Below, piece after piece: positions 14,178 through 31,682 of a DNA stretch of 34,925 bases. The stretch covers positions 1 through 34,925 of the forward strand of contig JACQAC010000108.1 of assembly GCA_016195245.1 (NCBI GenBank), read 5' to 3'. Below the pieces are notes generated by a model. The model did no database searches. It saw only the letters and a program-made list of their open reading frames with translations, and was not told the DNA's origin. Every line of letters starts with the position of its first letter. Within the stretch, counting starts at the first letter, position 1. A program made the position numbers and the translations under genes. This DNA is from Pseudomonadota bacterium (GTDB lineage: Bacteria; Pseudomonadota; Alphaproteobacteria; Caulobacterales; Aquidulcibacteraceae).

Positions 14178-14200
14178 AATCTCGCGCACATAATGACGCG

Positions 14201-14226
14201 GGGTGGTTAATCAACGTTAGCCACCC
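14201..14226. promoter_or_regulatory. Hairpin/palindrome upstream of mlaA
   Basis: GGGTGGTTAA (14201-14210) pairs with TTAGCCACCC (14217-14226) apart from one T-G, with a 6-base centre. It lies about 24 bases before the mlaA start and could be an operator or a 5' leader hairpin. The TTAA-N6-TTAG core is close to, but not, the CtrA consensus, which has a 7-base spacer. Confidence 0.35.
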
Positions 14227-14396
14227 GCATCGATCCGCAGTTTGTGGGGTGCTTAGGGGACCTGCATTTGATGCTATTGCGATGAATTAGCGGAAATAAA
14301 ACGAGTTATGCGGTGCCGCAGCCACACATTCGGAACTTCGGCTTTGGCCCGATGCTGCTTCAAATCGGGGCTTTCCTAGCCACCATCTTTCTGTCA

Positions 14397-14414
14397 TATA
14401 AAGATATGTTTATA
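14397..14414. promoter_or_regulatory. 18-bp palindrome TATAAAGATATGTTTATA, candidate SahR-type operator
   Basis: Arms TATAAA and TTTATA surround GATATG; only one base pair breaks perfect symmetry. It covers the regulator's start codon (ATG at 14406) and is strikingly AT-rich for this DNA. From memory, ArsR-family SahR regulators of the methionine cycle recognise AT-rich palindromes of this general kind, so autoregulation and control of the met operon is the likely role. Confidence 0.6.
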
Positions 14415-15383
14415 CCTCCAAATCAGCTCGCGCCGACGCGGCAAGATGCGGGGCGCGTGGTGACGGCGTTGCGCGCCGCTGGGGAACAAACTCGGCTGCG
14501 CGCGCTGGCGTTACTCACCGAGGGGGAGTTGGCGGTTGGTGAGTTGGCCCAGGCGCTGGGGCAAAGCCAGCCGCGCGTGAGCCGGCACTTGAAGCTGCTC
14601 ACGGAGGCGGGATTGGTCGAGCGCGCGCCGGAGGGTGCGTGGGTGTTTTATCGCCTGCCGCGCTCGCGCACGACGGAACGCCATCTCGCCGACGCCGCGC
14701 TCGCCATGCTCGATCCCAATGATCCGGTGCTTGCACGCGATACGGAGCGCCTGAACGCAATTCGCTCGGCGCGTGACGAAGCGGCTGCGGAATACTTTGA
14801 GCGCAACGCGGCTGACTGGAACCGTGTCCGAGCCCTGCATCTGCCTGAGGCTGATATCGAAAGCGCGATCCTTGGCGCGGCGGGCGCCGGCCCGTTCGAC
14901 CTCATGGTGGACGTTGGCGTTGGCCAGGGGCGGATGATCCAGCTTTTCGCTGATCGCGTGCGGCGGGCTGAGGGCTTCGACACCAGTCGCCAGATGTTAG
15001 CGATCGCGCGTGCATCGCTTGACGATCTGAAAGCGAAGGCCGCGCTTCGATTTGGCGATGCCTATGCGCCTCCAGTCGACGCTGGATCGGCTGATCTGGT
15101 TACGATCCATCAGGTCCTGCATTTTCTTTCCGACCCTAAGCGGGCGGTGGCGGAAGCGGCGCGGTTGCTGAAGCGTGACGGACGCTTGCTGATTGTCGAT
15201 TTTGCGCCGCACCACCTGGAATTTTTGCGCGAAGAGCACGCGCATCGCAGGCTTGGTTTTTCCGACGAGGAAATTCGCGAGTGGTGCGCTGACGCGCGCG
15301 TTGGTGATGTTGCGGTTGAGACGCTGGCGCCGAAGGAGCACGAGGCGCTTACTGTGAAGATCTGGTCTGGAAATCGGCTATGA
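14406..15383 (+). CDS. ArsR-family regulator fused to a SAM/SAH-binding methyltransferase domain (SahR-like)
   Basis: The 325-residue protein has an ArsR winged-helix domain (about residues 14-90, with recognition helix QSQPRVSRHLKLLTEAGLV) and a class I methyltransferase domain with motif I at VDVGVGQG (168-175). The Cys-rich metal site of metal-sensing ArsR proteins is absent (GELAVGELAQAL in its place), so a metal ligand is unlikely. By analogy with SahR regulators of the SAM cycle, the C-terminal domain probably senses S-adenosylhomocysteine or SAM; it may not be an active methyltransferase. I start at the ATG at 14406. An in-frame GTG at 14313 would add residues unlike the family. The stop overlaps the metF ATG (ATGA), so it leads the met operon. 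Confidence 0.82.
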   Translation: MFIPPNQLAPTRQDAGRVVTALRAAGEQTRLRALALLTEGELAVGELAQALGQSQPRVSRHLKLLTEAGLVERAPEGAWVFYRLPRSRTTERHLADAALAMLDPNDPVLARDTERLNAIRSARDEAAAEYFERNAADWNRVRALHLPEADIESAILGAAGAGPFDLMVDVGVGQGRMIQLFADRVRRAEGFDTSRQMLAIARASLDDLKAKAALRFGDAYAPPVDAGSADLVTIHQVLHFLSDPKRAVAEAARLLKRDGRLLIVDFAPHHLEFLREEHAHRRLGFSDEEIREWCADARVGDVAVETLAPKEHEALTVKIWSGNRL

Positions 15384-16282
15384 CGCACGCCAATCTTATT
15401 GCCGAAGCGGCTGAACGGCTCGGACAGCCGCGGGTGTCATTCGAATTCTTCCCGCCAAAAACCGAGGCGTTGGAAACCCAACTTTGGGAAAGCATCCGCA
15501 AACTCGAGCCGCTCCATCCAAGCTTTGTCTCCGTGACGTATGGCGCCGGCGGGTCGACGCGCAGCCGCACGCACAAGACTGTGGCGCGGATCGTGAAGGA
15601 AACCGCGCTGCAGCCGGCGGCGCACCTGACGTGCGTGGCCGCTGACCGCGACGAGATCGAACAGGTGCTTGACGCCTATTGGGGAGCCGGCGTGCGGCAC
15701 TTGATGGCGTTGCGCGGCGATGCGCCTGGCGGCGCGGGCGCGGTGTTCGAGCCGCATCCCCAGGGCTTCAAGAATGCCGCCGAACTTGTTGCTGCGGCAA
15801 AGCGCCAGCACGATTTCGAAATCTCCGTCGCCGTACATCCGGAGAAGCATCCGGACTCCCCGTCGTGGGATGCGGAGATCGACAACTTCAAACGCAAGCT
15901 CGACGTCGGCGCGACGCGCGGCGTGTCGCAATTTTTCTTCGAGGCCGATACGTTTTTGAATTTCCGCGATCGTCTGGCGCGCGCGGGCGTCAATGTGCCG
16001 ATCGTGCCGGGGATCATGCCGGTGACCAACTTCAAGGGGCTTATGAAGATGGCGCAGGGATGCCAAGCGACGGTGCCACATTGGCTCGCGACTCTGTTTG
16101 ACGGTCTCGACAACGATCCTGAAACGCGGCGCCTGGTTGCAGCGGCGACCACCGCCGAGCTCTGCGCGCGGCTTTCGGCCGAAGGCGTTGAGGATTTTCA
16201 CTTTTACACGCTCAATCGCGCCGACTTGACGTTGGCGATCTGCCGCATCGTTGGCGTGCGCGTGGCGAAGGAGGCGGCATGA
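15380..16282 (+). CDS. metF: 5,10-methylenetetrahydrofolate reductase
   Basis: MetF reduces methylene-tetrahydrofolate to methyl-tetrahydrofolate with FAD, supplying the methyl group for methionine synthase. This 300-residue protein has the family's TIM-barrel hallmarks: VSFEFFPPKT near residue 19 (with the active-site Glu), SVTYGAGGSTR, HLTCV, LMALRGDAP, ISVAVHPEKHP, SQFFFEADTF and PGIMPVTNF. Length is normal. Its ATG overlaps the regulator's stop by four bases and its stop overlaps the next gene's ATG in the same way, so it belongs to a tightly packed operon with both halves of methionine synthase. The palindrome at 14397-14414 probably controls the whole unit. Confidence 0.96.
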   Translation: MTHANLIAEAAERLGQPRVSFEFFPPKTEALETQLWESIRKLEPLHPSFVSVTYGAGGSTRSRTHKTVARIVKETALQPAAHLTCVAADRDEIEQVLDAYWGAGVRHLMALRGDAPGGAGAVFEPHPQGFKNAAELVAAAKRQHDFEISVAVHPEKHPDSPSWDAEIDNFKRKLDVGATRGVSQFFFEADTFLNFRDRLARAGVNVPIVPGIMPVTNFKGLMKMAQGCQATVPHWLATLFDGLDNDPETRRLVAAATTAELCARLSAEGVEDFHFYTLNRADLTLAICRIVGVRVAKEAA

Positions 16283-17340
16283 CCCGCGAGGAACGCATCG
16301 CCGCGATTACGCGCGACATGCAGAAGCGCATTCTGATCCTGGACGGATCGATGGGCGCATACCTGCAAGGCTTTGGGTTGACGTCGAACGATTTTCACGG
16401 CGAACGCTTCGTCGAGCACCCGATGTCGCTTAAGGGCGATAGCGACGTTTTGGTGCTGACGCGACCAGACATCGTGACGAAAGTGCATGAAGGTTATCTC
16501 GCCGCAGGCGCGGAAATCATTTCTACGAACACTTTCACTGCAACGCCTGTCAGCCAAGCCGAGTACGCGCTGGAAGAAGTGGTCTACGAGATCAATGTCG
16601 ACGGCGCCCGCTTGGCGCGTGAGGCGTGCGACAAGTTCGAAGCGCGAGACGGCAAGCCGCGCTTAGTGGCGGGTTCGGTGGGGCCGACCACGAAATTGTT
16701 GTCGATGTCGCCCGATGTCGGCGATCCGGGGCGGCGCGATATTGACTTCGATGCGATGGCTAAAGGTTACAATGAGCAAATTCGCGGACTGATCGAAGGC
16801 GGCGCCGATGTGTTGTTGATCGAGACGATCACCGACACGTTGAATGCCAAAGCGGCGTTGTGGGGGGCGTGGGAAGCATTCGACAAGTTCGGCGTGGAGT
16901 TGCCGCTTTGGATTAGTGGAACGATCACTGATCGTTCCGGACGTACGCTGTCGGGGCAAACGGTGGAGGCGTTCTACAATTCGGTGCGCCACGCGAAACC
17001 TTGGGCGGTAGGGCTGAATTGTGCGCTAGGGCCCACGGATATGCGCGCGTTTCTCGCGGATTTGTCGCGTGTCGCGGAATGCCCAGTGAGCGCTTATCCG
17101 AACGCCGGACTGCCAAACGCGATGGGCGGCTACGATGAGACCGCGTGCTCGATGGAAACGCATTACGCGGAGTGGGCGAAGGCGGGGCTGGTGAATATCG
17201 TCGGCGGCTGCTGTGGCACGACGCCTGAGCACATGGAGCACATGAAGCACGCGGTGGAGGGCGTGAAGCCGCGGGCGATCCCCGAACGAGATACGCATCT
17301 GCGCCTCGCAGGCTTGGAACCGTTCAATGCGGCGGCTTGA
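16279..17340 (+). CDS. metH: Methionine synthase, homocysteine-binding part (split MetH, N-terminal module)
   Basis: This 353-residue protein matches the N-terminal homocysteine S-methyltransferase domain of MetH. It begins with ILILDGSMGAYLQG, and has NTFTATPVSQAEY, LIETITDTLNAKAAL and the zinc-binding cysteines in GLNCALGP and GGCCGTTPEH, which hold the zinc that activates homocysteine. It ends just after this domain, so the pterin, cobalamin and reactivation domains are supplied by the next gene. Split MetH is, as far as I recall, normal in Caulobacterales and not a frameshift: the two parts are separated by 144 bases and lie in their own frames with their own starts. It overlaps metF by ATGA. 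Confidence 0.93.
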   Translation: MTREERIAAITRDMQKRILILDGSMGAYLQGFGLTSNDFHGERFVEHPMSLKGDSDVLVLTRPDIVTKVHEGYLAAGAEIISTNTFTATPVSQAEYALEEVVYEINVDGARLAREACDKFEARDGKPRLVAGSVGPTTKLLSMSPDVGDPGRRDIDFDAMAKGYNEQIRGLIEGGADVLLIETITDTLNAKAALWGAWEAFDKFGVELPLWISGTITDRSGRTLSGQTVEAFYNSVRHAKPWAVGLNCALGPTDMRAFLADLSRVAECPVSAYPNAGLPNAMGGYDETACSMETHYAEWAKAGLVNIVGGCCGTTPEHMEHMKHAVEGVKPRAIPERDTHLRLAGLEPFNAAA

Positions 17341-17484: not shown

Positions 17485-20040
17485 GTGACCAACACCGCAA
17501 ATCCCTTCGCCAACTTCGTCATTGTCGGTGAGCGCACCAACGTCACCGGCTCGGCGAAGTTTCGCAAGCTAATCGAGGCGGACGACTATGCCGGAGCGCT
17601 CGCGGTGGCGCGCCAGCAGGTCGAGAGCGGCGCCAATGTGCTCGACGTCAACATGGATGCGGCGCTGATCGACGGTCCCGCCGCCATGCGGCGGTTCTTG
17701 AACCTGATCGCCTCCGAGCCGGATATCGCAAAAATTCCGCTGATGATCGACAGCTCCAAGTGGGAAGTGATCGAAGCCGGCCTCAAGTGCGCCCAGGGCA
17801 AGTCGATCGTCAATTCGATCAGCTTGAAGGAAGGCGAAGAGAAGTTTCTCGCGGAAGCGCGCAGGGTTCGCCGCTACGGCGCCGCAACGGTGGTGATGGC
17901 GTTCGACGAGAAGGGCCAGGCCGATACAGCGCAGCGGAAATATGAAGTCTGCGATCGCGCCTATCATCTGCTAACGGAAAAAATTGGTTTTCCACCCGAA
18001 GATATCATCTTCGATCCAAACATTTTCGCTGTCGCCACCGGTATCGAGGAGCACGCGGATTATGCGCTTGCATTCTTTGAGGCGACGCGTCGGATTCGCG
18101 AAAGTTTGCCGCACGTACATGTCTCCGGCGGCGTCTCCAACGTCTCGTTCTCGTTCCGCGGCAACGAGCCGGTGCGGGAAGCGATGCACGCGGTATTTCT
18201 GTATCACGCCATCCGCGCCGGTATGGACATGGGCATCGTCAATGCCGGTTCGTTGACGCTGTACGATGACGTTGAGCCGGAATTGCGCGAGCGCGTCGAA
18301 GATGTGCTGCTCAATCGCCGCGCCGACGCGACTGAGCGATTGTTGGAAATCGCCGAGCGCGTCAAAGGCGGCGGCAAGAAGAAGGACGAGGCGCGCGATC
18401 TCTCCTGGCGGCAAAAGCACGTCAATGATCGCCTCAGCCACGCGCTCGTCCACGGCATCAACGAATTCATCGTCAAGGATACCGAGGAGGCGCGTTTGCG
18501 CGCCGAGCGGCCTCTGCATGTGATCGAAGGGCCGTTGATGGATGGCATGTCCGTCGTCGGCGACTTGTTCGGCGCTGCCGGCAAGTCCAACGGCAAGATC
18601 GTGATGGCGACGGTGAAGGGCGATGTCCACGACATCGGCAAGAATATTGTTGGCGTGGTGCTGCAGTGTAACGGCTACGAGATCGACGATCTTGGCGTCA
18701 TGGCGCCGTGCGACAAGATTCTGGATCGCGCCGTCGAGATCGGCGCCGACGCGATTGGTTTGTCCGGCTTGATCACGCCGTCGCTCGATGAAATGGTGTT
18801 CGTGGCGGGCGAGATGCAACGGCGCGGCATGAAGCTGCCGTTGCTGATCGGCGGCGCCACAACGTCGCGCACGCACACTGCGGTGAAGATCGCGCCCCTC
18901 TATTCGGGTCCAACCATCTATGTGAACGACGCTTCGCGCGCGGTGCCTGTGGTGCAGAAGCTGCTGGGCAAGGAGCGCGATGCGCTGGTGAATGAAACCA
19001 AGGCGGATCAGCTTTCAGCGCGGGAACAATATCTGGCGGGTCAAGACAAGCGTCCGCGTCTGCCTATCGCCAAGGCGCGGGAGCGCGCGCTCAAGTTGGC
19101 CTTCAAGCCGGTGAAACCGAGCTTTCTGGGTTTGCGCTCATTCGACGATTATCCGCTCGATTTGCTGGTTCCGTACATTGATTGGACGCCATTCTTTGCG
19201 TCGTGGGATCTCGTCGGTCGTTACCCAAGCATTCTCGAAGACGACATTGTCGGGGAAGCGGCGCGAAACCTTTATCATGATGCCCAGGCCATGCTCGTGC
19301 AATTGGTTGCCGAGAAGTGGGTGAAGGCTTCGGGCGTGGTAGGCTTTTGGCCTGCGAATGCGCAAGGCGATGATATTGTGCTCTGGAGGGACGAAACGTG
19401 CACCACGGAGCGCGCGCGGCTGCACACCTTGCGCCAGCAGATGGATAAGGGCGACGGCAAATCCAATCTCGCGCTTGCAGATTTTGTCGGACCAAAGGGC
19501 GTCGCTGACTACGTTGGCGGCTTCGCTGTGACCGCCGGCCTCGGTGAAGAGGACATCGCTATTCGCTTCAAGCGCGCCAACGATGACTATTCCGCCATCA
19601 TGGCGCAGGCCTTGTGTGATCGCTTGGCGGAAGCCTTTGCCGAGGCAATGCATGCGAAGGTCCGTCGCGAGCTTTGGGGCTACACGCCGAGCGAGCAATT
19701 GAGCTACGCGGAGCTGATCGAAGAGAAGTACAGCGGCATTCGTCCGGCGCCGGGATATCCTGCACAACCTGACCACACCGAGAAGACGACATTGTTCGAT
19801 TTGCTTGAGGCGCGCGAACGCACGGGTATGGAATTGACAGAGAGCTTGGCGATGACGCCGCCGTCTTCTGTCTCAGGGCTCTATTTCGCGCATCCCGAGG
19901 CGGAATATTTCGGCGTCGGCCGCATCGATCGCGATCAAGTTGAGGATTATGCGCGGCGCAAGCAATGGGACACGGCGACGGCGGAACGCTGGTTGTCCCC
20001 AATCCTATCGTACGATCCGGCCCTGGCGAAGGCTGGTTAG
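17485..20040 (+). CDS. metH: Methionine synthase, pterin-, cobalamin- and SAM-binding modules (split MetH)
   Basis: This 851-residue protein holds the remaining three modules of cobalamin-dependent methionine synthase. The pterin-binding domain starts with [16 protein letters not shown] and includes [11 protein letters not shown]. The cobalamin-binding region has [17 protein letters not shown], where the His of DVHDIG is the lower cobalt ligand, and [12 protein letters not shown]. The C-terminal reactivation domain shows [15 protein letters not shown], which binds SAM for reductive remethylation. The start is GTG at 17485, directly ahead of the conserved N-terminus, with only a weak ribosome site (upstream is the palindromic repeat). 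Together with the previous gene it makes methionine from homocysteine and methyl-tetrahydrofolate. A hairpin follows the stop. Confidence 0.95.
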
Positions 20041-25870: not shown

Positions 25871-25962
25871 TCGGATAGCGCCGCCCGTTCGTCGCAGCTA
25901 CGATGTCAACACCGGCTGTTGGGCTAGGTTCCCGGCTCGGACAAATTGAGGAAATATTGCTC

Positions 25963-27840
25963 ATGGATACGACGCGGCGCGCGGTGCTCACTGCAACGGC
26001 AGCGGGCTTGGCCATTCTGGCTTCAGGCTGCAACCAAACCGGAGGCGCGGCGGGTGGCGATGCGCAGCTCAACGCCCTGCTGGACCGCATCTCAACGCAA
26101 TTCCTGCATGAAGCGCCGGAGTCTGCGACGAGTCTCGCCGTGACCGAACAGAAAGCCGGCGGTCGCTTCAAGGATCGATTGTCGGACGCTTCGAAGGAGG
26201 GATCGCATCGCCGCTTGCAGCTGTCGCAACAGGCGGTTGCCGATCTTCAGCACCTCGGCCGCGACTCGCTCTCGAACGCAGGCAAGGTCAGCTACGACGT
26301 TGTGATCACTGCGCTGCAGCAGGGCAATGCCGCATCCGCCTTTGACTACGGCGGCGGCGCCACGGCGCCCTATGTTCTGAGTCAGCTCACCGGCTCCTAT
26401 GCAAACCTTCCCGACTTTCTCGCGAGCCAGCATACGGTGGCCAGTCGCGATGACGCCGACGCCTATCTGGCGCGGCTTTCGGGCTACGCTCACGTGCTCG
26501 ATCAGGAAATCGCGGTTCTTAACGCTGACGCGGCGGCTGGCGTCATTCCACCCAATTTTTCGATCGAGCGCCCACCCGAGCAGGGTGAGCACGGCAACAA
26601 GGGGGCGATTCCGCAATTGCGCGGGTTCATCGCCGGCCCAGCGGCGCAGAACGTATTGGTGGCGTCGTTTGTACAAAAGCTCGGTAGCGTCGACTCCATT
26701 TCCGCCGCTGACAAGAACACGTTGGCGCAGCATGCGCAGACCATCGTGCATGATGAGATATATCCTGCCTATCAGCGTCAGATCGATGCGCTCAACGCGC
26801 TCAAGCCGCGCGCCACTCACGACGCCGGCATCTGGAAGCTGCCGCATGGCGAGGAAATGTATGCGGCAGCACTCGCGGAACAGACGACGACGTCCATGTC
26901 TCCCGATGAAATCCATCGGATGGGCCTTGAGCTTTGCCAGTCGTTGACCGCCGAGATGGACACGATCTTCAAGGCGCAAGGCATGAGCCGCGGCACGGTG
27001 TCGGAGCGGATCCAGCAGCTGTTTAGTCGTCCCGACCAGATGTTTCCGAACACCGATGCGGGTCGCGATCAGATTCTCGCGTACTGCAATCAACTCGTCG
27101 CCCAGGTCATGGCGGTGATGCCGCAATATTTTGGTGCGCAGGCGCATGCGGCGCTGCAAATCAAGCGCGTGCCTGCTTACACGCAAGACGGTGCGCCGGG
27201 CGGCTACTATCAGAACGCCGCACTCGATGGATCGCGGCCGGGCGCCTATTACATCAATTTGCGCGACACGTCGGAATTGCCGAAATTCACGCTGCCAACG
27301 CTCACGCACCATGAAGGCGTCCCCGGCCACCATTGGCAAATTTCCATCGCGCAAGAACAGCGCGCTTTGCCGTTCATTCGCAGCGCGCTGTTGGGGTTCA
27401 ATGCTTACGCCGAGGGTTGGGCGCTCTACGCCGAGCAGCTCTCCGACGAAATCGGACTCTATGCCAATGACCCTTGGGGCAGGATTGGCTACCTCAAGGA
27501 CGCCGCGATGCGCGCTTCGCGTCTTGTCGTGGACTCTGGCATCCACGCAAAGCGCTGGACGCGTGAACAAGCCATCACGCAGATGCAAGGCGTCACCGGA
27601 GACAAGCGGTCGGCGGTGGTGACAGAAATCGAACGCTACTGCGTATGGCCGGGCCAAGCCTGTGGCTACATGGTTGGCCGACAAGCCATCAATCGCATGC
27701 GTGACTCGGCGCGTTCCACGCTCGGCCAGCGCTTTGACATCAAGGGCTTCCACGACGCCGTTCTGGTGAACGGTTCGACGCCGCTCTCGGTCACGGAAAG
27801 CTTGGTGAATGAATGGGTGGCGTCACGCCAGCACGGCTAG
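25963..27840 (+). CDS. DUF885 family lipoprotein, putative metallopeptidase-like
   Basis: A 625-residue exported protein of the DUF885 family. The signal peptide contains TRRAVL, Tat-like in look, and ends at LASGC, a lipobox, so it is probably a lipoprotein. The family's conserved His/Glu motif is clear at residues 449-457 (HHEGVPGHH), resembling a gluzincin-type zinc site. Further conserved blocks are FNAYAEGWALYAEQL, with a likely third Glu ligand, and RYCVWPGQACGYMVG near the end. Peptidase activity is plausible from the motif but not established for the family to my knowledge. ATG at 25963 is supported by TTGAGGAAA upstream. A 26-bp palindrome follows the gene. Confidence 0.88.
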   Translation: MDTTRRAVLTATAAGLAILASGCNQTGGAAGGDAQLNALLDRISTQFLHEAPESATSLAVTEQKAGGRFKDRLSDASKEGSHRRLQLSQQAVADLQHLGRDSLSNAGKVSYDVVITALQQGNAASAFDYGGGATAPYVLSQLTGSYANLPDFLASQHTVASRDDADAYLARLSGYAHVLDQEIAVLNADAAAGVIPPNFSIERPPEQGEHGNKGAIPQLRGFIAGPAAQNVLVASFVQKLGSVDSISAADKNTLAQHAQTIVHDEIYPAYQRQIDALNALKPRATHDAGIWKLPHGEEMYAAALAEQTTTSMSPDEIHRMGLELCQSLTAEMDTIFKAQGMSRGTVSERIQQLFSRPDQMFPNTDAGRDQILAYCNQLVAQVMAVMPQYFGAQAHAALQIKRVPAYTQDGAPGGYYQNAALDGSRPGAYYINLRDTSELPKFTLPTLTHHEGVPGHHWQISIAQEQRALPFIRSALLGFNAYAEGWALYAEQLSDEIGLYANDPWGRIGYLKDAAMRASRLVVDSGIHAKRWTREQAITQMQGVTGDKRSAVVTEIERYCVWPGQACGYMVGRQAINRMRDSARSTLGQRFDIKGFHDAVLVNGSTPLSVTESLVNEWVASRQHG

Positions 27841-27847
27841 GCGTCAG

Positions 27848-27873
27848 GAGCGTGCGGCCTAGGCCGCACGCTC
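27848..27873. terminator. 26-bp perfect palindrome between convergent genes
   Basis: GAGCGTGCGGCCT followed directly by its reverse complement. It covers the stop codon of the minus-strand DUF2235 gene and sits 8 bases after the DUF885 stop, so it probably acts as a shared terminator. No T tract. Confidence 0.5.
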
Positions 27874-28965
27874 GCCACGGACAGCGTTTTCGATTTCGCC
27901 CGCGAATTTGTGAAGGATGGCCGGCCGATACTTCGCGTTGGCCGTCCAGCGCAAGCGCGCAGTCTCGTGGATGTCGTCGAAGCAGTGCAAACCTTTGCGC
28001 CAACGCGAGCCCATGAGCGCTGTTACCGAAAAGCCGGGGATGGCTTCGAGCTGGCTTTCGATCGGATCGATGTCGGCGAGACATCCCGAGATTACGCCGC
28101 CTGGCTCGCGCAACAGGGTCAGCCCCGCGTGCTCGGCGCCTTCGAGCACCCATAGCAGCGCGCAATTCGACAAGCCCTGCGCGTTGCCGCCGCCGCCGAC
28201 GCCGCCGTGATCGCCGGGAAACCATTGCTGCATCGCGCGCGTTGGGGCGCCCGGGGCGTTCAACTTGTGCAGGTTGGTCCAGAGCGTCGGCGCGAAGGCG
28301 GCGCGCTTTTCGTCAATCGCTACCGCATGACGCGCGAACTCGACGGCGCGTGACAGCGTGGTGTCGTGGAATTGGTACTGCTTGTTGAGGCCCATGGCGA
28401 ACGGCAGCACGCGCGGAATGCCGAGCGATCCTACGGTGTCCCAAACGCCCAGATAGCGGATGCGCAGTTCCGCGGTCGGCGCGCCAAATTGCACTGGGCT
28501 CTTGTCGATGCGCGGCCAGGCGATGGCATGTGCATAGCGAAAGTGCGCGGCCTCCGTGCTATCGGATTCGATTCGGCGGTTGCGATAGAGCTGCAACGCC
28601 GCGCCAGCCTGATTGACTTGCTCGCGCCGCAAGATGCCGCATTTGCGCAGGAGTCCGGCGAGGCTGCGCACGGTGTAGGCGCCGCGCGAGAAGCCAAACA
28701 GATAGATGTGGTCGCCGGGCTCGTAGTTGAAGTTGAGGAAGAGGTAGGCGTCGAGCAGATGCTGATCGAGATCGGCGCCGGTCATGCCGTCCCACATGCT
28801 CAAACCACCCAACGATGCGCCAACGCCGGCTGAGTAATAGACAATCTGTGGCTGGCCTTGGGTATCGCGCGGCGCAATCGAGCGCGCCGTCAGCGCGACA
28901 TTGGTGAGCGCGCCGCGATAGATGCGCTCCCAAGTGCCGTCGCAACAAATGATCAGCCGCTTCAT
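27859..28965 (-). CDS. DUF2235 family putative hydrolase (T6SS phospholipase-like domain)
   Basis: A 368-residue protein of the DUF2235 alpha/beta-hydrolase family, whose members include phospholipase effectors of type VI secretion but also many housekeeping copies. It opens with MKRLIICCDGTWER, continues with YYSAGVGA, and has the nucleophile elbow GFSRGAYTVRSLAG (GxSxG). YLGVWDTVGSLG and WFPGDHGGVGGG, likely carrying Asp and His, follow. No T6SS genes are nearby. The ATG at 28965 overlaps the metW stop by four bases (ATGA), so it is translated with metX and metW. The frame is open to 29325, but that extension overlaps metW antisense to sense and is Arg-rich nonsense. Substrate unknown. Confidence 0.88.
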   Translation of the reverse strand: MKRLIICCDGTWERIYRGALTNVALTARSIAPRDTQGQPQIVYYSAGVGASLGGLSMWDGMTGADLDQHLLDAYLFLNFNYEPGDHIYLFGFSRGAYTVRSLAGLLRKCGILRREQVNQAGAALQLYRNRRIESDSTEAAHFRYAHAIAWPRIDKSPVQFGAPTAELRIRYLGVWDTVGSLGIPRVLPFAMGLNKQYQFHDTTLSRAVEFARHAVAIDEKRAAFAPTLWTNLHKLNAPGAPTRAMQQWFPGDHGGVGGGGNAQGLSNCALLWVLEGAEHAGLTLLREPGGVISGCLADIDPIESQLEAIPGFSVTALMGSRWRKGLHCFDDIHETARLRWTANAKYRPAILHKFAGEIENAVRGERAA

Positions 28966-29606
28966 GGCGCGAGCAGAAACACAGCCTCTTCCGCAAACCA
29001 GTTTGGGCGCCAGAGTTTTTGTGCAAACGGCGCGCCGGGGCGGCCGCCGCTCAGCGGCACGGCGCTTTCGATGGTGAAGCGCATGTCGCGCGCCAGCTCC
29101 GCGAAGTCGCGGATCGAGCAGGGGCGCAGGATATCGCTGTCGGCCCAGCCGGGTGTTTGCATTTGGGGCGCGGGGATGCGGCCGTGCTGCAAGAACGCCA
29201 TGCGACCGCGCCAGTGCGCGAAATTGGCGATCGAGACGATAACGTGGTCGCCTATGCGGCCAGCTTGGCGCAGCACTTCGCGCGGATGTTCGAGAGCCTG
29301 AAACGTGCGCGAGAGCACAACGCAACCGAACGATCCAGACGGAAACGCCGCGAGATCGCGCTCCGCTTCGCCTTGCACCACAGCCAAACCGCGGCCCACG
29401 CAGGTGCGCACGCGCGTTTTGTCCCGTTCAATGCCGCGCGCGCGCGCTTCGCATTGCCGCGCCAGTAGGCGCATCAAGGCGCCGTCGCCGCAACCGACGT
29501 CCAACACTGTCGATCCCCGTTCGATGAAGCGGGCAATCACTTCGTGATCCGAGCGAGGACGCGCCGGTTCGTCCGGCGCAACATGCACAAGTTCGAGATG
29601 GGCCAT
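28962..29606 (-). CDS. metW: Methionine biosynthesis protein MetW
   Basis: MetW is a small methyltransferase-fold protein that partners with MetX in homoserine acylation in many proteobacteria; it is reported to assist MetX activity in some species. This copy has 214 residues, with motif I at VLDVGCGDGALMRLLA (about 34-49), IERDKTRVRTCVGRGLAVVQ, and the family segments FGCVVLSRTFQALEHPREVL and ANFAHWRGRM (about 125-134). It also has RPNWFAEEAVFLL at the end. Its start overlaps the metX stop by one base (TGATG) and its stop overlaps the DUF2235 start. A normal metW alongside an atypical metX is notable. Confidence 0.93.
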   Translation of the reverse strand: MAHLELVHVAPDEPARPRSDHEVIARFIERGSTVLDVGCGDGALMRLLARQCEARARGIERDKTRVRTCVGRGLAVVQGEAERDLAAFPSGSFGCVVLSRTFQALEHPREVLRQAGRIGDHVIVSIANFAHWRGRMAFLQHGRIPAPQMQTPGWADSDILRPCSIRDFAELARDMRFTIESAVPLSGGRPGAPFAQKLWRPNWFAEEAVFLLAP

Positions 29607-30757
29607 CAGGCTACTCCCACTTGCAGAGAGAGGCCGCGCGCAGCAGCGGCGGCGTCGATGAAGCCAGTGAGCGCCGCTTCAAACTGCGCGTCCTCTTCGA
29701 GATGTGCGTCATGGCCCTTGTCGCTTTCAATCTCAATGAAGGCGGCGTCGGCGCCAGCCGCCAGCAGAGCGCGTGCAAGGCGCCGGCCTTCTTCGGGCGG
29801 ATAACGCCAGTCAGTTGAGAACGAGAACAGGCAGTGGCGCGTTGCGGCATGGCTGAAGGCGTTGGAGAGATTGCCGCCGAAATCCGCGCCAAGATCGAAG
29901 GCGTCGGCAGCGCGCGTGAGGTAGAGGTAGGAGTTCGCGTCGAACCGATCGACGAAGGCGCTATTTGGGCGAGCCTCGTCAAGTTGTGCGGCAAGAGCAA
30001 ATCGCTCCGTGGCGGCGGCAGCGCTGAAGGCGTCGCGCAAGGCGAGCTCCGCGAGGTTTCCAATCTGCGAGGCGGCGCGTGCTACGCTTAGCCCCTTCAG
30101 GGGCCGCGTACCGAGCGTGTGATAACTGCCGCCACGCCAATCCGGATCCGCCATGATCGCTTGCCGGCTTAGTTCCGAGAGCGCCATCGCGACTGCGGTT
30201 TGCCGCGCGCCCGAGGCGACGGTCGCGCACGCGAAAACGCGCTTCGGATAAGCGCTCGCCCATTGCAGTGCTTGCATGCCGCCAAAGCCCGGCCCCACCA
30301 CCAAGAACAAACTCTCGATGTCGAGCGCCTCGATCAGCATCGCTTGCGCGCGCACCATGTCGGCGAGGTTAATGGAGGCGAAGCGCAGACCATACGGCGA
30401 ACCGTCAGACGCCAAGGATGCTGGACCGGTTGTACCCATTGAGCCGCCAAGCACGTTGGCGCACACGACATAGAGGCGGTTGGTGTCGATTGGCCGGCCC
30501 GGGCCAACGATGCGTGGCCACCAGGCGGGACGGCCGGTGATGGGGTTTGGCCCCGCCACGAACTGATCGCCTGTCAGCCCGTGGCAGACAAGCACGGCGT
30601 TCGAACGCTCGGCGTTGAGTGCGCCATAGCTCTCAAACGCAATCGTGAGCGGCGAAAGTATCTCGCCACTGGAGAGACGTAACGGCGCACTCGCGTCGAA
30701 CGTGAGGGTCCGCACGCCGCCTGCCGCCTGAATTTTTGCCGCTGCCCCGTGAATCAT
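29606..30757 (-). CDS. metX: MetX-like homoserine O-acyltransferase homologue lacking the catalytic serine
   Basis: The protein is 383 residues and clearly homologous to homoserine O-acetyltransferase: LVCHGLTGDQFVAG, WWPRIVGPGRPIDT, VVCANVLGGSMGTTGPAS, INLADMVRAQAMLIEAL, ADPDWRGGSY and FVDRFDANSYLYLTRA are all in order. The nucleophile elbow, usually VVGGSMGGMQ, reads VVGPGFGGMQ: Gly157 (codon at 30287-30289) replaces the Ser. The other triad members appear kept, Asp316 (FSTDWRYPP) and His349 (DKGHDAH). The usual FQVESYLxxQG segment before FVDRF is also degraded (FALAAQLDEARP). The ATG at 30757 starts the family N-terminus; upstream in-frame codons to 31021 overlap the divergent gene. Real MetX activity is doubtful. 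Alternatives are a regulatory paralogue or a changed mechanism. Confidence 0.85.
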   Translation of the reverse strand: MIHGAAAKIQAAGGVRTLTFDASAPLRLSSGEILSPLTIAFESYGALNAERSNAVLVCHGLTGDQFVAGPNPITGRPAWWPRIVGPGRPIDTNRLYVVCANVLGGSMGTTGPASLASDGSPYGLRFASINLADMVRAQAMLIEALDIESLFLVVGPGFGGMQALQWASAYPKRVFACATVASGARQTAVAMALSELSRQAIMADPDWRGGSYHTLGTRPLKGLSVARAASQIGNLAELALRDAFSAAAATERFALAAQLDEARPNSAFVDRFDANSYLYLTRAADAFDLGADFGGNLSNAFSHAATRHCLFSFSTDWRYPPEEGRRLARALLAAGADAAFIEIESDKGHDAHLEEDAQFEAALTGFIDAAAAARGLSLQVGVA

Positions 30758-30866
30758 GGCGACAATGGTAGCGTGCGTCGCGGCTGACGCATCCCCCGTG
30801 CAGCGCAGGGGTGTGAACGACTCGAGCCCGTTGGCGCGACGGCGAAAAGTCCGTAATGTTGTATCC

Positions 30867-31682
30867 ATGAATGACGGGAGCCAACCGGAACGCGACGCGA
30901 TCGAGGCTATTCGCCGCGAGATTGACGGTCTTGATGACGCGATGCTGTCGTTGGTGGCGGAACGGCTGAAGCTCGCCGACAAGCTAGCGCAGATGAAGAC
31001 CGCGCAAAGTGGGCTGCCCATTCGCTCCGGTCGCGAAATTATCCTACTGCGTCGCCTGATTGCCGCCGCGCCAGCGCCGCTGGAGCGCGAGGTTGTGGTC
31101 GAGCTCTGGCGCGCGCTGATCGCCGCGGCGCTGTGGCGTCAGCGCGTGATTGATGTGGTTATCGGCGGCGGGCGTAACGACCCAGCGCGGTTGTTCGATA
31201 TTGCGCGGCGACACTTCGGGGCCCGCGCGCGGATCAAGGACTTGGGTGAGCCACAGGCCGCGCTTCAGCGCGTGGCCGAGAGCCCGGACACAGTCGTTGC
31301 GGTGACGACATGGCCTGCGGCGCCGGGTGTTGGCGCTTGGTGGCCGGCGCTCTCCGAACAGCGCTTTCAAAAACTGCACATCATCGCCGGGCTGCCAGTC
31401 ATGGGTGTTGCGAGCGACCAACCAGAGGCGGCTGTGTTTGCCGCGGCCGACACCGAGGAAGCAGGTGGCGATGTTTCCATTCTGATGGCGTTCGATCCGC
31501 ATCACCGTTTGCAGCGCGCATTGAACGACGTGGGTCTCGCCGGCAAGGAGTTTGCACGCGCTGAGCCGCGCGTGTTGGTGCGAATCGAGGGCTTCGTCGC
31601 ACTGAACGATCCCCGCGCTGCCGCGATGACACGCTCTGGCCTTGATAGCGTTCGTGTGCTCGGTTCTTACGCGCGCGTCTGA
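30867..31682 (+). CDS. Chorismate mutase (AroQ type) with long C-terminal extension
   Basis: Chorismate mutase turns chorismate into prephenate for Phe and Tyr synthesis. The AroQ helical domain spans residues about 5-95: IEAIRREIDGLDDAMLSLVAER, where the Arg and Asp residues line the active site, KLADKLAQMK and REIILLRRLI follow. The remaining 175 residues form an alpha/beta region (VIDVVIGGGRNDPARLFDIA, HIIAGLPVMGV, VSILMAFDPHHRLQRALNDV) that looks like prephenate-dehydratase-type or ACT-like architecture without motifs I could match. A regulatory or second catalytic role is possible. ATG at 30867 is chosen; in-frame codons to 30756 precede it. The stop overlaps tyrA's ATG (TGATG). It is divergent from metX. 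Confidence 0.82.
   Translation: MNDGSQPERDAIEAIRREIDGLDDAMLSLVAERLKLADKLAQMKTAQSGLPIRSGREIILLRRLIAAAPAPLEREVVVELWRALIAAALWRQRVIDVVIGGGRNDPARLFDIARRHFGARARIKDLGEPQAALQRVAESPDTVVAVTTWPAAPGVGAWWPALSEQRFQKLHIIAGLPVMGVASDQPEAAVFAAADTEEAGGDVSILMAFDPHHRLQRALNDVGLAGKEFARAEPRVLVRIEGFVALNDPRAAAMTRSGLDSVRVLGSYARV

Follow-up and report, generated by a model that had tools for sequence, protein, structure and literature searches.

A 20-bp stretch in the window (the whole 34,925-nucleotide stretch of DNA analysed here) contains an AT-rich palindrome that is likely to be the autoregulatory operator of a SahR-type repressor. The operator would lie across both the promoter and the start codon of the repressor's own gene, termed sahR, whose message is probably leaderless. 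In this arrangement, one conserved 20-bp stretch would serve as a part of the promoter, as the operator, as the start codon and as coding sequence. SahR control of methionine genes is already known, as are leaderless autorepressor operons (AcuR, NreA), and the palindrome as it was first noted is mostly explained by the former. What sets this case apart is that the dyad has the initiator codon at its centre and that ahcY appears to have passed to a different sensor.

SAH releases SahR from its operator. In the mechanism that we propose, a SahR dimer bound at positions 14396-14415 would lie across the -10 element, the start of transcription and the opening codons of sahR, and would keep RNA polymerase from starting the sahR-metF-metH message. 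SAH bound in the methyltransferase-like domain would release the protein and raise expression of sahR, metF and metH. The leaderless message would begin at the A of the ATG, hence the start codon and the operator would coincide. Dimer binding, release by SAH, the exact transcription start and leaderless translation are the steps that we infer. Sequence comparison itself shows the site and its conservation, the start codon, the ahcY and metK sites of several sister genera, and the SAH riboswitch that ahcY has in this genus.

According to PMC8877191, deletion of sahR raised sahR expression in Ensifer aridi. An earlier note on this DNA held that binding would block both transcription and translation initiation, giving tight feedback on the operon. 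The position of the site supports autoregulation of sahR-metF-metH, and therefore the transcriptional part of this claim. A separate translation block is unsupported, because a repressor on DNA acts on transcription; blocking of translation by SahR on the mRNA, for which there is no evidence, is not needed. As for tight feedback, autoregulation is again what the site position indicates, but a sign is needed as well, and the published basis (PMC8877191, citing Novichkov) says only that SahR binding depends on SAH.

Table 1. Predicted regulatory elements and genes of the sahR-metF-metH region, in window coordinates.
Feature	Position	Strand	Basis
Predicted SahR operator, 20-bp register (core palindrome 14397-14414)	14396..14415	.	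Conservation; motif at ahcY/metK in g6, g9, g11, g14
ATG start codon of sahR inside the operator	14406..14408	+	In frame in 35/35 clade loci; codon periodicity
Predicted transcription start (+1)	A of ATG 14406, give or take 1-2 nt	+	Promoter geometry
Putative -35 element CTTTCC (clade pattern [TC]TnnC)	14371..14376	+	35 nt before ATG; fixed distance from site
Putative extended -10 TGTCATATA, overlapping the left operator half	14392..14400	+	Clade profile
sahR: ArsR HTH (residues 28-72) and class I methyltransferase-fold domain (about 168-263)	14406..15383	+	
metF, overlapping the sahR stop (ATGA)	15380..16282	+	
First of two separate metH genes, encoding the N-terminal homocysteine methyltransferase part; overlaps the metF stop (ATGA)	16279..17340	+	
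metH, remaining domains, a separate gene 144 bp further on	17485..20040	+	Start codon per ORF finder

The gene that heads this operon most likely encodes a SahR-type regulator that joins an ArsR domain to a methyltransferase domain. A C-terminal SAM-methyltransferase-like effector domain is a defining feature of SahR. The proposal of an ArsR regulator with a methyltransferase fold, made from the letters of the window, is borne out by domain searches: the product matches an ArsR-type helix-turn-helix (PF01022, E 6e-15), scores 80.9 bits against NF033788 (cut-off 55) and carries a methyltransferase domain (PF08241, E 1.4e-19). Across 18 diverse sequences, the SAM-pocket motif D169xG171xG173xG175 does not vary, nor does D192. 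An AlphaFold model of the protein has a mean pLDDT of 90.3; residues 1-8 are modelled with low confidence and are thus probably disordered. The best matches of the model in the PDB are to Rv2258c of Mycobacterium tuberculosis (5f8c/5f8e), a helix-turn-helix-methyltransferase protein that aligns over the whole chain and of which one form was solved with SAH. However, the domains of the two proteins are arranged differently (TM-score about 0.42, rmsd 20, 17-19% identity). A search by sequence for a solved full-length relative gave none at E 1e-5, and the matches span either the helix-turn-helix or the methyltransferase part.

Relatives were sampled from 81 genomes of the genus, family and order, the window's own genome included. 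SahR protein is present in 76 of these genomes, with 77 matches; the match in G028, which starts at residue 109 at a contig edge, was left out, leaving 76 loci in the site and metF counts. We use the term clade for the 35 loci from genera g1, g2, g9, g10, g11 and g14. The metF gene lies directly 3' of sahR in 34 of the 35 clade loci (the 35th has <600 bp left) and in 37 of the 41 loci outside the clade.

Published SahR is an SAH-responsive regulator of the ArsR family with a 20-bp palindrome (PMC4239095, Leyn et al. 2014). It was found in all four Caulobacterales covered in PMC4239095 and has been reported from 62 proteobacterial genomes (PMC5343134). The regulator in the window shares with it the ArsR family, a 20-bp palindrome at its own gene and co-located metF and metH, where the operator was compared with the published motif by size and symmetry. 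The identification as SahR, which the earlier note had also drawn, is therefore supported by both motif and gene context. A riboswitch in the sahR leader was considered and rejected, as the window has no Rfam match above the gathering score. Elsewhere in the window, a metX-like and a MetW-like gene, named from their translations, lie on the minus strand at 28962-31021; this stretch has no SahR site and no Rfam riboswitch.

The palindrome, TATAAAGATATGTTTATA (window letters 14397-14414), consists of A or T at 16 of its 18 bases. Eight of its nine pairs match, the sole exception being G14403/G14408, and a second analysis returned the identical two 9-nt arms. The ATG makes up the first letters of the right half. 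The window letters thus confirm an AT-rich 18-bp palindrome with one mismatched pair that includes the ATG, and this arrangement is conserved in 35/35 clade loci. The natural register of the site is 20 bp, ATATAAAGATATGTTTATAT, of which the last letter, at 14415, is C in the window and T in the other 34 clade loci.

Palindromy is weak evidence when taken alone. In 100 Markov sequences, 18-mers with at most one mismatched pair number 10.2 on average, and the window contains 5. One such palindrome turns up in 5.2% of the 2000 Markov copies made of the 300-bp neighbourhood. Given that the window has fewer of these 18-mers than the model predicts, palindromy was dropped as stand-alone evidence. 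The site nonetheless rises above chance, because it is unique in its own genome and is kept over the same ATG in every clade locus. A scan of the 2.96-Mb genome (81% complete) with the 20-mer consensus, allowing at most 3 mismatches, found 14396-14415 as the single place, and a reversed control pattern gave 0 matches. No second SahR site was detected in this 81% complete genome at 2/16 or 3/20 mismatches. A perfect palindrome, GTGCGGCCTAGGCCGCAC (27852-27869), lies just past the stop of the open reading frame at 25903-27840; it is terminator-like, without a T run.

The consensus of the site is CATATAAAGATATGTTTATATCTCCAA in the 35 clade loci and a perfect dyad, ATATAAAGATATCTTTATAT, in 39 loci outside the clade (L073 and L082, which have no recognisable site at 10 and 8 mismatches, were left out of this profile). 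The loci in these comparisons are related and are thus non-independent sequences. The site centre outside the clade is mostly ATC, and the key operator position is C at 22 of the 39 loci, G at 14 and T at 3. The palindrome's one mismatch is the G that creates the ATG, at a right-half position where C is more common. This mismatch need not weaken the site, judging from the occurrence of half-sites of both kinds in other species. Nor does the operator G appear to be held by the start codon alone, since it is shared by 14/39 non-clade loci and by some ahcY sites, where no start codon results; the idea that the initiator is its sole constraint is weakened to that extent.

Relatives whose start codon lies beyond the dyad or on its border offer a ready comparison set. 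In L240, L243, L272, L283, L285, L274 and L261 (Methylobacterium and other records), an in-frame ATG lies at the operator edge as TTTATG, which we regard as a separate overlap of start codon and operator. A SahR relative (54% identical) from a MAG titled Candidatus Muproteobacteria SZUA-472 (L249) has an in-frame ATG at the operator centre; this case may represent transfer or mis-binning.

The AT-rich block could instead be a promoter only, made up of a -10 element and the start region with no repressor site. It does overlap a -10-like element, and by geometry it sits at the transcription start. However, the dyad recurs upstream of other genes: in 16 family genomes its end is 62-133 nt from the ahcY match, and in 7 genomes of g6, g9, g11 and g14 its start is 62-106 nt from the metK match. 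The dyad is also conserved even though the register of the promoter against it differs between lineages, and its size and symmetry agree with the SahR palindrome described in PMC4239095. A promoter without an operator is thus highly improbable.

A second question is whether the ATG within the operator is the start codon. An in-frame central ATG is found in 35/35 clade loci. The distances from the site to an anchor in the helix-turn-helix are 72, 75, 78, 81, 84, 87, 93 and 96 in the clade, all of them multiples of three, and outside the clade they give all three remainders. On the SahR protein tree (a quick tree with midpoint root), the central in-frame ATG corresponds to one change, on a branch with support of 96. 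Codon-phase entropies in 20 genus genomes without indels are flat upstream of the ATG (1.76/1.81/1.77), and codons 6-19 give 0.30/0.56/1.21.

These data bear on the possibility that an ordinary SahR operator lies in the promoter and that translation starts elsewhere, either at -15 or at GTG 14457/14460, which would make the ATG incidental. Consistent with that possibility, an in-frame ATG, GTG or TTG occurs at -15 in 19 of the 35 clade loci, most clade loci (the window included) have downstream in-frame starts, and TATAAA taken as the -10 would place +1 at about 14409, past the ATG. However, the spacing between site and anchor is a multiple of three in all 35 loci, and codon periodicity is seen past the ATG and not ahead of it. 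Moreover, five clade loci have an in-frame stop at most 15 nt upstream of the ATG, and in two loci (L019 and L023) the stretch from the upstream stop to the helix-turn-helix offers no alternative in-frame start. The window has further in-frame starts at -54 and -93 (ATG 14352 and GTG 14313), which codon-phase conservation rules out. Initiation away from the operator is therefore quite unlikely, and the sequence comparisons support ATG 14406 as the true start of sahR.

With this start, the right part of the operator falls in coding sequence. Codons 2-5 (consensus TTT ATA TCT CCA) show no third-position variation in 20 genomes, and ATA accounts for only 11 of the 319 Ile codons in 16 window genes. 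The invariant third positions together with the rare ATA point to a constraint at the DNA level within these codons.

Upstream of the clade site, only two blocks are conserved: GGGcTTnnC, which spans -30 to -22 counted from where the site begins, and TGTCATATA. The second is the putative extended -10, with T in 25, G in 27, T in 26 and C in 31 of 35 clade loci, followed by ATATA at 33-35/35. The region from -90 to -31 is unconserved in 20 genomes. We surveyed promoters and Shine-Dalgarno sequences at 150 loci with a site at no more than 5 mismatches (140 distinct), taking as the start the first in-frame ATG from the site on, an assignment that can be wrong. Eight loci have no in-frame ATG, and two with the ATG at offset 17 belong to no group. 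The central-ATG group of 38 comprises the 35 clade loci plus L077, L226 and L249; these last three are not counted as examples, and two of them have a later ATG.

In 33 of the 38 central-ATG loci, [TC]TnnC precedes the ATG by 34-37 nt (mean 4.71 and maximum 12 in shuffled sequences), and a control window at 50-53 nt before the ATG has it in 3 of 38; this loose clade -35 pattern was picked after the profile was seen. Loci with the ATG 22-28 nt past the site start have TTG[AC] at 34-37 nt before the ATG in 31 of 34 cases (shuffled mean 0.75; control 1), and 7 of the 12 loci with the ATG at offset 15 have it too (shuffled mean 0.25; control 0). In three of these 12 loci (L224, L228 and L255), another ATG is present at 24, where it follows the TTG by 36 nt. 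The spacing from TTG to ATG is likewise about 36 nt in L262 and L271, which are relatives of the C. crescentus sahR orthologue. Thus, the distance from promoter to ATG is kept while the position of the operator shifts between lineages: with the operator as reference, the clade has its promoter and start codon 13-17 nt further upstream than related families do. A Shine-Dalgarno core of at least 4 is present at 1 of 84 loci in the three early-ATG groups, versus 9 of the 46 loci whose ATG comes later.

In Caulobacter, the distance from the beginning of the RpoD motif to the transcription start site is 34-37 nt for 93% of motifs (PMC4287350), and 375 mRNAs are leaderless (PMC4117421). This spacing, together with the kept distance from the -35-like element to the ATG, leads to a predicted transcription start at the A of the ATG. 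With a -35-like element 34-37 nt ahead of the ATG and no Shine-Dalgarno site, the sahR mRNA is probably leaderless, and the ATG presumably lies inside the operator because the leaderless mRNA starts there. Two results count against this promoter assignment: the strict TTG[AC] at 35 nt is found in just 5 of 38 central-ATG loci, and a scan for promoters of the E. coli consensus sigma-70 type gave 0 sites at 14190-14500. A transcription start only 1-2 nt downstream would leave the ATG outside the message.

The mRNA might alternatively have a leader, with a promoter well upstream, the operator acting as a roadblock at the start codon, and initiation independent of a Shine-Dalgarno sequence. Such a model would fit the lack of a consensus sigma-70 match near the site and the frequency of genes without a Shine-Dalgarno site in Caulobacter, given as 75.4% of coding genes in PMC4117421. 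However, GGGcTTnnC at its fixed distance is the only conserved block further upstream, the sequence from -90 to -31 shows no conservation in 20 genomes, and the -35-to-ATG distance is kept while the operator register changes. We therefore consider a leader unlikely.

The predicted leaderless arrangement resembles that of AcuR in Rhodobacter sphaeroides (PMC3017554). There too, the repressor gene heads the operon that it controls, the operator overlaps the promoter and the inducer is a pathway product. The acuR-acuI-dddL message was found to start at the AUG by 5' RACE; the promoter geometry of sahR is compatible with a 5' end at the AUG, and here the start is predicted. Unlike SahR, AcuR belongs to the TetR family, and its operator overlaps the promoter upstream of the ATG and not the ATG itself. 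Translation of leaderless acuR reached only about 7.5% of that of the gene behind it (PMC3017554), and by analogy leaderless initiation may also keep SahR scarce. NreA, encoded in nreAXY of Mesorhizobium (PMC12724321), is likewise an autorepressor with a leaderless transcript and a compact promoter-operator, but it is a CsoR/RcnR-family protein whose operator lies in the -35/-10 spacer. The tetR gene of Tn1721 and lambda cI are also named as leaderless mRNAs (PMC9938897).

The core SahR targets listed in PMC4239095 are sahR, ahcY, metH, metF and metK, where core members are those regulated in >70% of SahR genomes. With this definition, missing sites at ahcY or metK in one genome do not exclude membership. 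The earlier note suggested looking for the same site near these two genes. The motif is indeed present upstream of ahcY and metK in genera g6, g9, g11 and g14, but neither gene has a SahR site in the window's own genome (81% complete). Both genes also lack one in 14 of the 15 other genus genomes searched, and the site was found only at sahR in the own genome and 14 of these 15. G002 has a second SahR site, at ahcY, and no riboswitch, and G023 has one further match with 3 mismatches, far from ahcY and metK. In the two genomes of genus g10, which belongs to the clade, no site was found at ahcY or metK.

In the own genome, an SAH riboswitch (RF01057; L185, G000:C164:4887-4963) lies 36 nt before the ahcY match and scores 56.8 bits against a cut-off of 37. 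This RNA shares with SahR both its ligand, SAH, and its target, ahcY, but the sensor is RNA. A survey of ahcY sensors in family f1 covered the 47 genomes with an ahcY match, which G013 and G032 lack. The riboswitch is present in 29 of the 47, a SahR site in 16, neither in 2 (G033 and G045) and both in 0. The riboswitch is found at ahcY in 28 of 29 genus genomes and in G038, and the SahR site in 15 of 18 family genomes outside the genus and in G002. The ahcY matches of G014 and G037 are partial, and the riboswitch in G014 is 256 nt from its partial match. When 385 alphaproteobacterial genomes across the class were scanned with strict filters and with 11 candidates scored per genome among the matches listed, only the own genome passed the riboswitch cut-off; one other had a weak match of 31.6 bits.

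These distributions make it reasonably probable that, in this genus, the SahR regulon has shrunk to its own operon and that an SAH riboswitch took ahcY over from the SahR operator. Under the same reading, which we hold with similar, measured confidence, operator, promoter and initiator codon became fused in a leaderless message and the regulatory logic was kept, with SAH turning ahcY on. The arrangement would thus differ from SahR as described in PMC4239095, since the operator is on the start codon and only at sahR-metF-metH, and ahcY is under an SAH riboswitch. Table 1 of PMC4239095 lists both SahR and SAH riboswitches in Pseudomonadaceae, so their presence within one group is not new; its alphaproteobacterial groups include no SAH riboswitch. 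A swap from SahR to a riboswitch at ahcY is not named in the literature that we found, our coverage of which is partial.

What such a swap would offer is a clean case, at one gene and inside one bacterial family, in which an SAH riboswitch replaces an SAH sensor that binds DNA. Because the sensors differ among near relatives, regulator replacement is testable there. Within the genus, a SahR site at ahcY combined with the lack of a riboswitch was found in G002 (L123) alone, and this site was either kept from the ancestor or regained; if the reading above is true, the exchange is open to study between close relatives. In G038 (genus g10; L201/L121), the AhcY protein associated with a riboswitch falls inside the window's genus in a quick AhcY tree, and this grouping suggests transfer of ahcY and riboswitch together. 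The tree was built from stop-to-stop frames with odd N-terminal extensions, its outgroup does not form one side of a branch, and it was used only to place G038 and G002 among the window's genus.

The genus also contains two types of metK, whose matches measure about 1150 bp and about 1197 bp. Both types occur in G011 (G011:C3:285475-286617 and G011:C2:74102-75298), and metK of the own genome (G000:C263:4427-5584) is of the shorter type.
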